Shown here in pieces: positions 19,405-32,967 of a stretch of DNA of 45,014 bases (within the stretch, counting starts at the first letter, position 1; each line of letters begins with the position of its first letter). The translations under genes and the position numbers were made by a program. Under the pieces are notes generated by a model that was given only the letters and a program-made list of their open reading frames with translations, made no database searches and was not told the DNA's origin. Source of the stretch: Rothia similimucilaginosa (GTDB lineage Bacteria > Actinomycetota > Actinomycetes > Actinomycetales > Micrococcaceae); contig NZ_JAOVAM010000012.1 of assembly GCF_029850875.1 (NCBI RefSeq), positions 1-45,014 on the forward strand. Reading direction: 5' to 3'.

Positions 19405-19482
19405 ACGAACTATTCTTCGTAATATGCCCATAATAGCACCCCAAGAATCTCTCTGAGGCTGTGATTCCGAAGAATAGTTCGG
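19405..19482 (-). promoter_or_regulatory. Promoter and paired operators of the HTH gene
   Basis: On the minus strand TTCTTG (19442-19447), a 17-bp spacer and TATTAC (19419-19424) form a promoter. Two palindromes flank it: ACGAA-N6-TTCGT at 19405-19420, just after the -10, and CCGAA-N6-TTCGG at 19467-19482, upstream of the -35. The 13-base core GAACTATTCTTCG of one is the exact reverse complement of the other (19407-19419 and 19468-19480). Their centres are 62 bp apart, about six helical turns, so two dimers would lie on the same DNA face. Binding by the HTH protein is inferred. Confidence 0.65.
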
Positions 19483-27121: not shown

Positions 27122-27187
27122 AACACCCCCGAAAGCGAATAATTCAACGTGCACTTGCATGAAAATTATTTTCCTTTCGGGGGTGTT
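27122..27187 (+). terminator. Long hairpin downstream of the MFS gene
   Basis: AACACCCCCGAAAG and CTTTCGGGGGTGTT are a perfect 14-bp stem. Inside it ATAATT pairs with AATTAT. There is no strong T tract but the position, 33 bases past the stop codon, fits a terminator. Confidence 0.7.
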
Positions 27188-27951: not shown

Positions 27952-28145
27952 CGCCGCCGCGCATCCCTCATTCTTTTCGCGCCTGCCAGCCTTTCGTACC
28001 TGTCAGCGCAGAATCGAACACCTGATCCCGCCCGTGATGGTCGCCCCCTGCCAGGGCTGAACCGCCGGGCGGGATGCTCTTTAAGCCCGCACTGAATACC
28101 CTGCAACTCGACGGGCAAAACCAGAGAAAAGGTAAACTTATCTTT

Positions 28146-28877
28146 ATGCCTCTCTCAGAACTTTCCGTCAGCACCCAGAACTACCTCAAGGAAATCTGGA
28201 GCCTCGAAGAATGGACCCAAACCCCTGCCACCGCATCCGCCCTGGCAGAGCGCATGGGCCTGCGCATTTCTTCGGTATCTGACGGCCTTAAGCGCCTGGC
28301 TGCCGCCGATCTGATTGAGCATCAGCCCTACGGCGCCATTGAGCTCACTGAAACCGGCCGCTCCTACGCGCTGGCGATGATTCGCCGCCACCGCCTCATT
28401 GAGACATTCCTGGTTGAGACTCTCGGCTACACCTGGGACCGTGTGCACGACGAGGCGGAGGTTCTGGAGCACGCGGTATCCGACTTCATGGTGGACCGCA
28501 TCGACACCCTGCTGGGACACCCGACCCGCGACCCGCATGGCGACCCGATCCCGGACGCTTCAGGGCATATTAGTTTTCCGCAGACCGTGCCGCTGAGCCA
28601 ATGCGAACCCGGCGAAACGGTCGTGCTCGAACGCATTAACGATGACGACCCACGCCTGCTGCGTTACCTGCAGGGCCAAGGTTTTGTGCCCGGCGTGCGC
28701 CTGCACATTGAGGAGGGTGCGCCCTTCTCTGAGGCGGTGAATGTGAGCGTGGTCGGTGCCGGTTCCGGCAACCTGCACGAGACGGACGCAGCCGGCGTGG
28801 TAAAGCCCGGCGGCACGATTATTCCGTTGGGTGCGGAGGCGACCGCCTCCCTGTTCGTGTCCCGCACGGTGCGGTAG
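28146..28877 (+). CDS. DtxR/MntR family metal-dependent regulator, probably manganese-sensing
   Basis: 243 residues from the ATG at 28146. An N-terminal winged helix (about 1-65; ASALAERMGLRISSVSDGLKRLAAADLI) precedes the metal-binding dimerisation domain with RRHRLIETFL and HDEAEVLEH, then GHPTRDPHGDPIP, and a C-terminal SH3-like (FeoA) domain. In iron-sensing DtxR/IdeR the dimer-domain motif has Cys (E-A-C-x-x-E-H); here that position is Glu, as in manganese-sensing MntR. It converges on a Mn-type ABC importer, its probable target. TAAACT lies 7 nt before the ATG, so the message may be leaderless. Confidence 0.85.
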   Translation: MPLSELSVSTQNYLKEIWSLEEWTQTPATASALAERMGLRISSVSDGLKRLAAADLIEHQPYGAIELTETGRSYALAMIRRHRLIETFLVETLGYTWDRVHDEAEVLEHAVSDFMVDRIDTLLGHPTRDPHGDPIPDASGHISFPQTVPLSQCEPGETVVLERINDDDPRLLRYLQGQGFVPGVRLHIEEGAPFSEAVNVSVVGAGSGNLHETDAAGVVKPGGTIIPLGAEATASLFVSRTVR

Positions 28878-28900: not shown

Positions 28901-28949
28901 ACAGCAATAGGCGGAAAACCCCACGGTGAGACTTTCCGCCTATTGCTGT
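28901..28949. terminator. Bidirectional terminator between mntR-like gene and importer operon
   Basis: ACAGCAATAGGCGGAAA and TTTCCGCCTATTGCTGT make a perfect 17-bp stem with a 15-nt loop. It lies between the convergent regulator gene (plus) and the ABC permease gene (minus). Confidence 0.85.
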
Positions 28950-28964: not shown

Positions 28965-29849
28965 TTAGGAAGCTGACAGCTCAGTTTTCGTTGCAGCAGT
29001 GTTGAGCCGGCGGGCACGCATCCTGCCCAGCAGACCGTAGCGCGGGGCAAACACATACGCCAGGGCGAACAGCATACCCTGCGTAACAACCACGGCACCG
29101 CCGGGGGATACATCCGCGTGGTAGCTGACGTACAGACCGGTCAGCGTGCCCACCAGGGACACACCCACACTCACCAGAAGCATGGGCACAAACCGGTCAG
29201 TGACCAGGCGCGCGGTAGAGCCGGGGATGACGAGCATCGCCACGACCAGCACCACACCCACAATCTGCAGCGCCACCACAGAGGTCAGTGCCAGCATAAT
29301 CAGCAGCAGCGCACCGAGCAGACGCGGACGCAACCCAACCGCCTGCGCGAAGCCCGGGTCGAAGGCGTACAGCACGAAGTCGCGGCGCTTGACCAGCAGC
29401 ACGGTGGCAACCACCACCGCGAGGACGGCTACCTGCCAGACATCCGACCAGGACACGCCCAGCACGTTACCGAAGAGAATATGGTTCAGGTCGGTATTCG
29501 ACGGCGTGACCGAAATCAACACCAGACCGAACGCGAAGAGGGTCGTGAACACGATGCCGATTGCGGCGTCTTCGCGCACGCGGCCGCTGCGCCGCACCCC
29601 GCCGATGAGCGCCACCGCCACGAGCGCGGCAATGACCGCACCCACCGCGAAGGGTGCACCGAAAATGTAGGCGAGCACCACGCCGGGCAGCACCGCATGC
29701 GAGATGGCGTCGCCCATGAGCGACCAGCCGAGCAGCACAAGCCAGCAGGAGAGCAGGGCGCAGACGGCGGCGGCAATGATGGTAACCACGAATGCGCGGA
29801 GCATGAAGGGCAGGGTCAGCGGCTCTACCAGAAAGTTGAGGATGTCCAT
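28965..29849 (-). CDS. Manganese/zinc ABC transporter, permease (ABC-3 family)
   Basis: 294-residue membrane protein with about eight to nine helices. LVLLGWSLMGDAISHAVLPGVVLAY near the N terminus is the signature segment of ABC-3 metal permeases, and PGSTARLVTDR lies in the second half. The ATG follows directly on the ATPase gene (the stop of that gene and this start abut), so the two are coupled. The importer as a whole takes up Mn(2+) or Zn(2+); the binding-protein ligands favour manganese. Confidence 0.92.
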   Translation of the reverse strand: MDILNFLVEPLTLPFMLRAFVVTIIAAAVCALLSCWLVLLGWSLMGDAISHAVLPGVVLAYIFGAPFAVGAVIAALVAVALIGGVRRSGRVREDAAIGIVFTTLFAFGLVLISVTPSNTDLNHILFGNVLGVSWSDVWQVAVLAVVVATVLLVKRRDFVLYAFDPGFAQAVGLRPRLLGALLLIMLALTSVVALQIVGVVLVVAMLVIPGSTARLVTDRFVPMLLVSVGVSLVGTLTGLYVSYHADVSPGGAVVVTQGMLFALAYVFAPRYGLLGRMRARRLNTAATKTELSAS

Positions 29850-30668
29850 TTAGTTCTTCCCTTCCGCAGAGCTGTTTGTAGTATTGCCGGAGGTAGTAGC
29901 TGTGGAGGCAGCGACCGGTGTGCCGGTGTCTACTTCCATGCCGAAGGCACGCACCAGGTTCTCGGGGGCGAGCACCTTCTCGGGGGTGTCGTGCATCAAA
30001 ATCTCACCGCGCAGCAGCAGCGCCTCGTCGGCGAACTGGCGCAGGGTCGCTAAGTCGTGCGTGGAAACCAGCACGGTCGCACCCTCGTCGCGCAACTGTT
30101 CAATAACCTGAATGAGCATTGCCTCGCTACGCTTATCCACACCGGCGAAGGGCTCATCAAGCAGCAGCAGCTGGGCACCCTGGGCGATAGCGCGTGCCAC
30201 GAAGGCGCGTTTACGCTGACCACCCGAGAGCGCCCCAATCTGACGGTCGGCAAGGTCGGTCAGTTCCACGCGGACAAGCGCCTCATCCACGGCGGCACGG
30301 TCTGCGGCACGCAGGCGGCGGGTGATGCCGAGGTTGCGGTAGCGCCCCATGCTGACGACCTCGCGCACGGAGATGGGGAAGGCCCAGTCGATTTCTTCGC
30401 TCTGCGGCACGTAGCTGACGAGTCCGGCACGGTGGTGGTGCGCGTTCTTGCCGCGGTTACCGCCGACGGACTGCCCGTCGAGAGTAATGCTGCCGGCATG
30501 CACGGGCACGACCCCCATGATGGCTTTGAAGAGGGTGGATTTGCCGGAGCCGTTCATACCGATCAGGCCGCAGATACCCCCGGTGTCCAGGGTGAAGGAT
30601 GCGCCGGTGAGGGCGCGGACTGGCCCATAGTTCACGTGCACATTGTCGCAGCTGAGAAGAGTGCTCAT
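29850..30668 (-). CDS. Manganese/zinc ABC transporter, ATP-binding protein
   Basis: 272 residues. Walker A GMNGSGKST, the Q-loop at YVPQSEEIDWAFPISV, signature LSGGQRKRA, Walker B LLLLDEPFAGVD and the H-loop STHD are all present. The sequence EEIDW..P is typical of metal-import ATPases. A Ser/Thr/Ala-rich tail ends the protein. The gene lies between the lipoprotein gene (212 bases upstream) and the permease (directly downstream). Confidence 0.93.
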   Translation of the reverse strand: MSTLLSCDNVHVNYGPVRALTGASFTLDTGGICGLIGMNGSGKSTLFKAIMGVVPVHAGSITLDGQSVGGNRGKNAHHHRAGLVSYVPQSEEIDWAFPISVREVVSMGRYRNLGITRRLRAADRAAVDEALVRVELTDLADRQIGALSGGQRKRAFVARAIAQGAQLLLLDEPFAGVDKRSEAMLIQVIEQLRDEGATVLVSTHDLATLRQFADEALLLRGEILMHDTPEKVLAPENLVRAFGMEVDTGTPVAASTATTSGNTTNSSAEGKN

Positions 30669-30827: not shown

Positions 30828-30885
30828 CGGGGTTTTCGATGCGGGGTTTGGCCCGGGTTTGACCCTGGTTTATACCGGGTTTAAG
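30828..30885. repeat. Short GGTTT repeats at helical spacing after the metal lipoprotein gene
   Basis: On the plus strand five GGTTT cores begin at 30831, 30845, 30856, 30867 and 30878, that is 14, 11, 11 and 11 bases apart, most preceded by CCC or CGG. The last runs into the stop codon of the minus-strand binding-protein gene. The array lies in the 212-base gap between that gene and the ATPase gene. Confidence 0.5.
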
Positions 30886-31843
30886 AGTTGCCCTTGAGGC
30901 CGGCCACGATGGTGCGTGCGTCGTAGCGGATCATGTCCAAGTAGGTGGGCACGGGGCCGTTCGCCTCGGAGAGCGAGTCCACGTAGAGCACGCCGCCGAA
31001 TCGCGCACCGGTGGCGTCGGCTACCTGGCGCATCGGGTTATCGGAGACGGTGGATTCGCAGAACACGGCAGGCACCTGGTTCTGGCGCACGTAATCGATT
31101 GCGGAGGAAATCTGTGAGGGGGTCGCCTGCTGTTCGGAGTTGACCGCCCAAATGTACTTTTCCTTCAGGCCCGCGTCTGCCGCCAGGTAGGAGAAGGCGC
31201 CTTCGCAGGTGACGAGTGCGCGCTGGTTCTCGGGCAGGGTGGAGATTTCCTTGACAAGCTCGTCACGCACGCCCTGCAGCTGCTTCTTGTAGGCTTCGCC
31301 GCGGGACTTGTAGTCGGCGGCGTGGGTGGGGTCGAGGGCGCTAAATTCACGAATCATCACGTCCACGTACTTCTGTACGTTGCTGGGGCTCATCCAGGCG
31401 TGGGGGTTGGGCTTGCCTGCGTAGGCGTCCTCGGTAATAGAGATGGGCGTGACTCCCTCGGAGACGGTCACGTGCTTAGCGTTAGATTCTTCAACGAACT
31501 TGGCGAACCAGGATTCGAGGTTCAGGCCGTTGTCGAGCACCAGGTCAGCGGCGTGAGCCTTCTTCAGGTCGGAGGGGGTGGGCTCGTACTCGTGGATTTC
31601 AGCACCGGGCTTGGTGAGGGATTCGACATTCAGGTCATCGCCTGCCACGTTGCGGGCAATGTCTGCGAGCACGGTGAAGGTTGTGAGCACGGTCTTCTTG
31701 CCGTTGCTGCTCTTAGCGCCTTCGGCGGTGCTGGCGGTGTTACCGCAGCCGGTGAGCACGAGTAGCAGGGTGAGTGCGAGGGCGGCGCAGAGCGCCTGGA
31801 CGAGGCGGCGTGCATTGCTGCCTGCGGGGGTGAGAGCATTCAT
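30881..31843 (-). CDS. Manganese-type ABC transporter, substrate-binding lipoprotein
   Basis: 320 residues from the ATG at 31843, with AAGGA 6 nt upstream (an in-frame ATG 12 codons earlier is less likely). The signal peptide ends in the lipobox LTGC. The four metal ligands of the cluster A-I family are visible: His in EIHEYEPTPSD, His in NPHAWMSP, Glu in TCEGAFSYL and Asp in YVDSLSE. Glu at the third position, rather than His, is the PsaA/MntC arrangement linked to manganese over zinc. The first gene of the importer operon, it is preceded by a structured leader and a promoter with a palindrome in its spacer. Confidence 0.92.
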   Translation of the reverse strand: MNALTPAGSNARRLVQALCAALALTLLLVLTGCGNTASTAEGAKSSNGKKTVLTTFTVLADIARNVAGDDLNVESLTKPGAEIHEYEPTPSDLKKAHAADLVLDNGLNLESWFAKFVEESNAKHVTVSEGVTPISITEDAYAGKPNPHAWMSPSNVQKYVDVMIREFSALDPTHAADYKSRGEAYKKQLQGVRDELVKEISTLPENQRALVTCEGAFSYLAADAGLKEKYIWAVNSEQQATPSQISSAIDYVRQNQVPAVFCESTVSDNPMRQVADATGARFGGVLYVDSLSEANGPVPTYLDMIRYDARTIVAGLKGNS

Positions 31844-31905
31844 GAGGCATCCTTCATTGGAAGTCACGCGTTTGAGCATGTGGCTGATATGTGGAATTTG
31901 TCGCG

Positions 31906-31971
31906 CCGGGACGATAGGGACACAGTTGTGTCTGCGCAGGCATCATGGTGCGCTTTTGCCTATCGTCCCGG
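31906..31971 (-). ncRNA. Structured 5' leader (three-way junction) of the Mn importer message
   Basis: Read on the minus strand the 66 bases fold completely: P1 pairs CCGGGACGATAGG with CCTATCGTCCCGG (13 bp, perfect); CAAAA joins it to P2, GCGCA/TGCGC with a 10-nt loop; one A joins that to P3, GACAC-AACT-GTGTC; and P3 abuts P1 with no gap. Every base is accounted for. It starts about 4 nt after the transcription start predicted from the promoter and ends 62 nt before the ATG. It does not look like the yybP-ykoY manganese riboswitch that I know. A DNA-level operator is the alternative. Confidence 0.55.
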
Positions 31972-31981
31972 GCGGAATTTA

Positions 31982-32010
31982 ACAATAGTTCGGCAAGGCG
32001 AACTTTTCAA
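31982..32010 (-). promoter_or_regulatory. Mn importer promoter with a palindrome filling the spacer
   Basis: On the minus strand TTGAAA (-35, 32005-32010), a 17-bp spacer and TATTGT (-10, 31982-31987). The spacer is nearly the whole of a palindrome, AGTTCG-N6-CGAACT (31987-32004). A repressor bound here would block RNA polymerase directly. The MntR-type regulator 3 kb away is the natural candidate, but that pairing is inference. Confidence 0.65.
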
Positions 32011-32105
32011 CTAAGCCACACAGAAAACCCCAAAATATTGGCAGAAACACAGGGGTCGACGTGCAGAGACAGGCGCACAGAGAAAGAAGCACCTACAGAT
32101 AGAGT

Positions 32106-32136
32106 AAGGAGGCGAGAGCCTCACTCTCGCCTCCTT
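32106..32136 (-). terminator. Terminator hairpin of exoA
   Basis: AAGGAGGCGAGAG and CTCTCGCCTCCTT form a perfect 13-bp stem with a 5-nt loop, 31 bases past the exoA stop codon. Confidence 0.75.
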
Positions 32137-32166
32137 GCCCCCCTGCAACAGGTATATGACGGTTAT

Positions 32167-32967
32167 TTAGTCGGCAATCTCAACCACGACCGGCGTGTGG
32201 TCGCTCGCGCCCTCACCGGCGCGTTCCACCCTATCGATCCAGGCACATTCCACGCGTGCGGCAAGCGCGGGCGAGAACAGCTGAAAGTCAATGCGCATAC
32301 CCTCATCCTTGGCGAAGCGGCCCGCCTGGTAGTCCCAGTAGGTGTACTCGCCGGGAGTGTGCGGGCGTACTACGTCCACCATGCCCTCATCGAGCAGGGC
32401 GGCGAAGGCACGGCGTTCAGGCTCGGAAACGTGGGTCAGCTCGTTACGCAGGAAGTAGTCAATGTCCCACACGTCGGTGTCTTCGGGGGCGACATTCCAG
32501 TCGCCGACCAGGGCGAGCTGCGACTGCGGGTTAGCGGCAAGTTCGTTGTGCACGTTCTGGCGCAGCGCCTCCATCCAGCGGAGCTTGTAGTCCATGTGCG
32601 GGTCGGTCAGGCCGCGGCCGTTAGGCACGTAGAGGCTCCAGACGCGCACGCCGCCGCAGGTCGCACCAATTGCGCGCGCCTCGAGCACTTCGGGTTCGCC
32701 GGGCTTGCCGAAGTGCGGCTGGTTGTCAAAGCCGCGCTGCACATCCTCAAGGCCCACGCGGGAGGCGATTGCCACGCCATTCCACTGATTCAGGCCAAAG
32801 TGCGCGACCTCGTAGCCCATGAATTCGAAGAGGTCGAAGGGGAAGGTTTCGTCCTTGGTTTTTGTTTCTTGCAGGGCGAGCACGTCAACATCGTGTTCGT
32901 CGAGCCAGTCTTCGACGCGGTTTTCGCGGGCGCGGATTGAGTTGATGTTCCAGGTGGCAATCTTCAT
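32167..32967 (-). CDS. Exodeoxyribonuclease III / AP endonuclease
   Basis: Base-excision repair nuclease of the Xth/ExoA family. The 266 residues from the ATG at 32967 start with the canonical MKIATWNINSIRAR and contain LALQETK, SLYVPNGR, LVGDWNVAP and the C-terminal SDHTPVVVE; the catalytic Glu, Asp, Asn and His are all in these segments. A longer frame to 33033 adds residues before the family start. TAAGCT lies 7 nt before the ATG without a clear ribosome binding site, again the leaderless pattern. It is transcribed toward the Mn importer but ends at its own hairpin. Confidence 0.94.
   Translation of the reverse strand: MKIATWNINSIRARENRVEDWLDEHDVDVLALQETKTKDETFPFDLFEFMGYEVAHFGLNQWNGVAIASRVGLEDVQRGFDNQPHFGKPGEPEVLEARAIGATCGGVRVWSLYVPNGRGLTDPHMDYKLRWMEALRQNVHNELAANPQSQLALVGDWNVAPEDTDVWDIDYFLRNELTHVSEPERRAFAALLDEGMVDVVRPHTPGEYTYWDYQAGRFAKDEGMRIDFQLFSPALAARVECAWIDRVERAGEGASDHTPVVVEIAD

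Follow-up and report, generated by a model that had tools for sequence, protein, structure and literature searches.

A stable branched hairpin at the predicted front of a probable manganese importer message in a small group of Rothia

The window analysed here is a stretch of 45,014 nucleotides from Rothia similimucilaginosa (assembly GCF_029850875.1, contig NZ_JAOVAM010000012.1, positions 1 to 45,014). Its minus strand carries an operon for a metal ABC importer, made up of the genes for an EfaA/MntC-like binding lipoprotein (30881..31843; PF01297, 1.9e-84), an ATPase (29850..30668) and an ABC-3 type permease (28965..29849). The start of the lipoprotein gene was placed at the ATG at 31843 rather than at the open reading frame start at 31879, judging the Shine-Dalgarno sequence and the lipobox by eye. 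The best NCBIfam models for this protein are EfaA, MntC and SloC, followed by the zinc protein AztC, all below their curated cut-offs. Convergent to the operon, on the plus strand, lies the gene of an MntR/DtxR-type regulator with a FeoA domain (28074..28877), which scores 164.6 bits against the NCBIfam MntR model, under the cut-off of 350. Considering the lipoprotein model matches and the neighbouring regulator, the imported metal is probably manganese, and the regulator is the probable manganese sensor for the importer promoter. Between the convergent regulator and permease genes, a 17-bp perfect inverted repeat (28901-28949) probably acts as a two-way terminator.

A scan of positions 31800-32200 returned a single promoter (0.2 expected), formed by the -35 hexamer TTGAAA (32005..32010) and the -10 hexamer TATTGT (31982..31987) on the minus strand, 17 nt apart. 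A similar -35 hexamer is seen by eye in many leaders of the genus. The spacer is filled by the palindrome GTTCGCCTTGCCGAAC (31988..32003), a putative operator of the MntR/DtxR type. Thirty-two of the 35 genus genomes yielded the binding-protein gene, and 30 loci were examined. A script pattern, TTCGN6CGAA, was present upstream of the gene in 22 of these loci; three more carry degenerate copies recognised by eye and five are without an operator. The MntR-type palindrome occurs at five exact places in the genome compared with three for its reversed control, so that the pattern does not discriminate by itself. The palindrome in the spacer is probably the operator of an MntR/DtxR-type regulator. 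From the spacing (7 nt past the -10 hexamer), transcription is predicted to start at about 31975, 4 nt before the element described below. This agrees with the original prediction, which had put the element about 4 nt into the message and at the head of a manganese-type importer transcript; the lipoprotein gene follows the element after 62 nt.

The element occupies positions 31971 to 31906 on the minus strand, which also carries the importer gene. Its 66 bases form a three-way junction with none left over, as had been claimed from the letters alone. Indeed, RNAfold returns exactly this structure at -35.9 kcal/mol for the minus strand, and the mirror image at -37.2 kcal/mol for the plus strand. 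The 13-nt 5' arm of the closing stem P1, CCGGGACGATAGG (31959..31971), is followed by a 5-nt junction, CAAAA (31954-31958), and by P2, a 5-bp stem with the arms GCGCA (31949..31953) and TGCGC (31934..31938) around the 10-nt loop CCATGATGCC (31939..31948). A single A (31933) separates P2 from P3, a hairpin of 5 bp with a 4-nt loop (GACAC-AACT-GTGTC, 31919..31932), which leads directly into the 13-nt 3' arm of P1, CCTATCGTCCCGG (31906..31918). The stems were assigned with RNAfold. In the minimum free energy fold, P1 is prolonged by three further outward pairs beyond a 1-nt bulge, reaching 31974 and 31902. The stability exceeds that of shuffled sequences by far: the plus-strand 66-mer has z -5.88, and a 75-nt minus-strand segment taken from about the predicted start has z -7.0, each equalled by none of 200 shuffles. 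The message would begin with about 4 unpaired nucleotides, or 1 if the outer P1 pairs form; the proximity of a stable stem to the 5' end, within a few nucleotides, holds only given the predicted start at about 31975.

Downstream of the element, a 62-nt spacer (31844..31905) with weak local hairpins only leads to the start codon. It contains the Shine-Dalgarno sequence GAAGGA (31850-31855), part of which is paired in a local hairpin; in the minimum free energy fold the site does not pair with the element. No terminator-like site was found in 31800-32200 by a scan restricted to loops of 3-8, and the T run that, together with a stem, would make an intrinsic terminator is absent 3' of P1. An upstream open reading frame starting from ATGATG in the P2 loop was considered by eye in the alignment. 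In the window it reaches the Shine-Dalgarno region; it was rejected because it is cut by an early stop in two related genomes (G014 and G015) and frame-shifted in a third (G013, R. mucilaginosa 141_RMUC).

By itself, a long stem without mismatches does not distinguish the element in this window. Perfect inverted repeats (arms of 13 bp or longer, loops of 3-60) occur on average 0.017 times per shuffled window (60 shuffles), and the window holds nine of them, the element included. The repeats at 19406-19481 and 27122-27187, for instance, each have perfect arms of 14 bp, enclosing 48 and 38 nt, and are apparently intergenic. This abundance favours the view that the element is a neutral structure, one of the long inverted repeats frequent in the intergenic DNA of this genome and without a role of its own, a reading considered rather unlikely. 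Several of the other repeats look terminator-like by eye; the element lies downstream of a promoter, and it is this position just inside the predicted message that sets it apart. The element is present once in the genome: among eight matches one is the full copy, and the other seven are 13-20 bp long, two of them being its own arms. A mobile or repeat element with inverted ends was rejected on account of this single copy.

Known RNA families do not account for the element. Rfam gave no match at the gathering score in the window, and at E<=10 over 12 loci nothing fell on the element, the 21 matches elsewhere being tRNA/tmRNA or chance. The yybP-ykoY family (RF00080), which the original prediction had set aside, gave no match on the element and none at E<=0.001 in its own genome. 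Across the 35 genus genomes, RF00080 produced sub-threshold partial matches in six and none over the cut-off; as a control, the same model detected 5 of 14 known genomes, with 2 over the cut-off. In the available portions of open-licence PMC articles on Rothia manganese or MntR, on R. mucilaginosa riboswitches and on Rothia 5' UTRs or start sites, this leader was not found.

Homologues of the element occur in 4 of the 35 genus genomes (that of the window, G013, G014 and G015), always before the importer lipoprotein gene. The element has the same sequence in G014 and G015, leaving three distinct sequences. The P2 and P3 stems and the 5-nt junction are invariant in the four genomes, two positions of the P2 loop vary and so does the P3 loop. 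Without variation, P2 and P3 are neutral on the question of structural conservation. In P1, ten pairs are invariant and three of the 13 vary, by breakage only, with 4 of 39 cells unpaired. Each of the three relatives has two mismatches in P1, so the perfect 13-bp stem is peculiar to the window's genome. Their fold still lies far beyond shuffles: z values over the 75-nt frame are -7.0 in the window and -4.3, -5.2 and -4.1 in the others. The neighbouring genome on the tree (G006) has a different, longer branched fold, which closes over 68 nt with z -1.5. In the alignment of the four genomes, 7 of 66 positions vary in the element, 4 of 41 in the promoter and operator, 11 of 62 in the spacer and 18 of 150 in the coding start, compared with 41 of the 60 nt upstream of the promoter. 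Conservation therefore covers the whole leader and not the element in particular. That P1 decays without compensation speaks for a neutral structure; that the element is about as conserved as the coding start speaks against it.

These data bear on the possibility that the junction is a riboswitch, binding Mn2+ or another metal and then shutting down the importer mRNA. Such a sensor is suggested first by the presence of a three-way junction where the message of a manganese importer is predicted to begin, and the invariance of P2, P3 and the 5-nt junction is in line with it. Not one of the 23 pairs shows compensation, however, although three distinct sequences give the covariation test low power; the lack of compensatory change that had been named as grounds for refutation is therefore seen only in part. 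P1 is broken in the relatives, at 3 of its 13 pairs, and the element is confined to 4 of 35 genomes. No expression platform was seen, neither a terminator-like site nor, in the minimum free energy fold, pairing of the Shine-Dalgarno sequence with the element, and an MntR-type operator already serves the promoter; an RNA sensor of manganese would therefore be possible but unnecessary. The positive evidence amounts to place and shape, and a metal-sensing riboswitch is not supported and seems very unlikely. The original prediction had allowed for a metal sensor or a stability element, and it is the latter that stays a live option.

The leaders of other Rothia genomes extend the comparison. The 25 loci with an operator, 22 by pattern and three by eye, were folded in a frame of 75 nt that opens near the predicted start. 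Ten of them close into one structure spanning 66-74 nt (z <= -2.39): the four described above, four of the koreensis group (G010, which is R. koreensis, G023, G025 and G026), and those of R. halotolerans and R. santali (G009 and G022). The six genomes of these two other lineages have unrelated sequences, yet their leaders close over 66-71 nt with z -2.4 to -4.2, and their closing helix starts no more than 8 nt into the frame. The leader of R. aeria (G001) forms a local hairpin with a span of 33 and z -3.0 and has no closing stem; stem loss in close species, also named beforehand as a refutation, is thus partly observed. The remaining 14 leaders, that of G006 among them, have z above -1.6. On the binding-protein tree (35 rows), the ten closed leaders occupy three places, which takes three changes; well-supported branches force at least two of these, and a single gain with two losses would also be compatible with this tree.

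A similar layout at three places of the tree argues against a neutral structure, and it is likewise a point in favour of a riboswitch; against the latter, the interiors of the three lineages differ in sequence. By a loose measure of closure, which counts windows overlapping the element, attains 13 pairs at 615 of 17976 window positions and is given little weight, between 0.6 and 6.8% of the 75-nt windows in the same loci close as well (9 of the 10 leaders, G015 left out); this favours neutrality and speaks against a capping role. The koreensis group shares the P1 sequence GGCGGGUGnGn and the invariant GATCCAGCT. Its P1 has one compensated pair, G-C to A-U, which is not significant since 123 of 500 shuffles equalled it. 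One compensated pair was also found between R. halotolerans and R. santali, within chance (244 of 500 shuffles as high).

Covariance models did not connect the lineages. The model of the window's element recovered its own four among the 35 genus genomes at E below 1e-14; the next matches were at E 1.3 (on the plus strand of the element), 4.1 and 5.8, with none better than 1.2 in the rest of the 35. On 11 other loci its best match (E 0.25) lay off the leader, and 1 of 36 matches fell on the R. halotolerans hairpin (L049, 1324-1382, E 3.7; minus-strand twin E 9.6), at chance level. The koreensis-type model was applied to 395 family genomes and matched 24 at E<=1, the four source genomes being below 1e-9. 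Its best match elsewhere, in G052 at E 8.6e-4, is to a plain, short hairpin that lacks GATCCAGC, and 19 further genomes matched at E 0.04-0.99. On nine loci its best match (E 0.089) lay elsewhere, and 1 of 37 matches touched the R. santali leader (L047, 1241-1271, E 6). Both models match strongly only at the importer lipoprotein gene. Remote homology of the window's element with the other two lineages was rejected, as no significant match was obtained in either direction.

Outside the genus, 137 genomes of the family have the gene (161 of 295, minus 24 of the genus). In 77 of their leaders read by eye, many have an operator-like palindrome near the start codon and are short, while several are longer (e.g., L225 and L227-L232). 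Since closure as described above is not reached by 15 of the 25 folded genus leaders and many leaders beyond the genus look short, the importer can in general do without such a structure. In another genus, a long palindrome seen by eye in L232 (G183) begins at the -10 hexamer of the binding-protein gene. In four Rothia loci (L065, L066, L067 and L206, from G021, G018, G005 and G016), a long hairpin without a recognisable operator precedes the importer gene; the gene directly upstream is presumably that of seryl-tRNA synthetase, which its end resembles by eye.

The invariant koreensis-group sequence raises another possibility, namely that the hairpin displays a sequence for recruiting or holding the ribosome (standby site) or for pairing with an antisense partner. 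GATCCAGCT lies inside the closed leader hairpin of L051 (G026), L053 (G025), L059 (G010) and L063 (G023) and is complementary to the 3' end of 16S rRNA; GATCCAGC pairs with GCTGGATC of that 3' end, which was found in all 6 genomes tested. The leaders of R. halotolerans and R. santali contain GATCC as well. Out of 300 letter shuffles, 1 was as good as the predicted pairing in G026, 4 in G025, 23 in G010 and 42 in G023, so the signal is strong in two near-identical genomes and weak in the other two. For the window's element, by comparison, 229 of 300 shuffles were as good (210 in G014, 223 in G013), which does not exceed chance, and the same holds for R. halotolerans (234/300) and R. santali (156/300); in G006 the count was 38/300. 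Part of the rRNA target is normally within helix 45, which also counts against this explanation. Pairing of the hairpin interior with the anti-Shine-Dalgarno sequence was obtained in G025 by duplex prediction and by eye in G026 and G022, but it was not seen in the window's clade. The koreensis-group complementarity may be taken as a lead for a ribosome-related role there; it fails for the window's element, and a translational element seems decidedly unlikely overall.

An attenuator or a Rho-dependent terminator in the leader would be a further explanation. In the relatives, the spacer after the element is rich in C and poor in G, with 19 C and 7 G in 52 nt in G014; the window's spacer has 17 C and 9 G in 52 nt. 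Such a composition is a feature of Rho sites. Rho also acts in the leader of E. coli mntP according to the available part of one study (PMC11647493). Composition by itself is weak evidence, however, and neither a terminator-like site nor an alternative anti-structure was seen; of the readings considered, this is the most improbable.

The explanation judged best, at about an even chance, is that the element is a 5'-terminal branched hairpin protecting the importer mRNA. How the leader folds, and where this structure lies with respect to the predicted promoter, follows from the computation, whereas the protective role is drawn from precedent and is itself put at even chances. MntR bound in the promoter spacer would set, according to manganese, whether the message is made, as the operator and the neighbouring regulator suggest. 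In the mntABC-type message, no more than about 4 unpaired nucleotides would then precede P1; this stem could hide the 5' end from decay that depends on it, and the 62-nt spacer would hold the ribosome site apart from the stem. For this purpose a stable P1 would suffice even if imperfect, in line with the mismatches it tolerates; a protective role allows mismatches and wholesale sequence replacement, as observed. The capping role is supported by the fold, which lies far beyond shuffles in all four genomes despite the P1 mismatches of the relatives, by the variation in the element, close to that of the coding start and far from that upstream of the promoter, and by the similar layout in two further lineages. 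Against it stand the lack of covariation in the window's clade, the many importer leaders that do without such a structure and the partial local pairing of the Shine-Dalgarno sequence.

Precedents for protective 5' hairpins exist. In the sections available, 5' stem-loops are listed as protective, with E. coli ompA as an example (PMC7509114), and a 5' stem-loop is described that protects the gyrase mRNA of M. smegmatis, its disruption costing stability (PMC2358910); the latter provides a precedent in Actinobacteria. The likeness lies in a stem at or near the predicted 5' end, followed by a spacer and a Shine-Dalgarno sequence. Unlike the ompA and gyrase hairpins, the element is a three-way junction rather than a simple hairpin. 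With yybP-ykoY (RF00080) it shares a multi-branched fold in the leader of a manganese transport gene, but it does not match the model and its gene is an importer. In E. coli, yybP-ykoY precedes mntP and alx, whose expression is raised by manganese, as stated in the accessible part of PMC9603457. The leaders of the koreensis and santali/halotolerans types share with the window's element the gene, the promoter layout, the closing stem at most 8 nt from the frame start and the span of 66-71 nt; they differ in having the interior motif GATCC in place of P2 and P3.

In summary, the element is a stable branched hairpin at the predicted front of the message in one small bacterial group, and it most resembles known protective 5' hairpins. 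The sequence analyses of this leader and of its relatives' leaders gave no evidence of metal sensing beyond place and shape. A broader proposal, and an unlikely one, is that Rothia importer mRNAs carry undescribed, fast-evolving 5'-capping modules of about 70 nt under an MntR promoter. These would form a post-transcriptional layer acting on stability or ribosome recruitment, possibly in a metal-dependent manner, with the outer stem replaced in its entirety from one lineage to another at a constant position and span. Should the protective role not hold, the case would be a caution that a perfect junction in one genome may be the best-paired version of its sisters' imperfect stem. Should it hold, control of the manganese importer would include a step after transcription in addition to MntR, and the three lineages, with different sequences and one layout, would offer a natural set for relating 5'-end structure to mRNA life in Actinobacteria.
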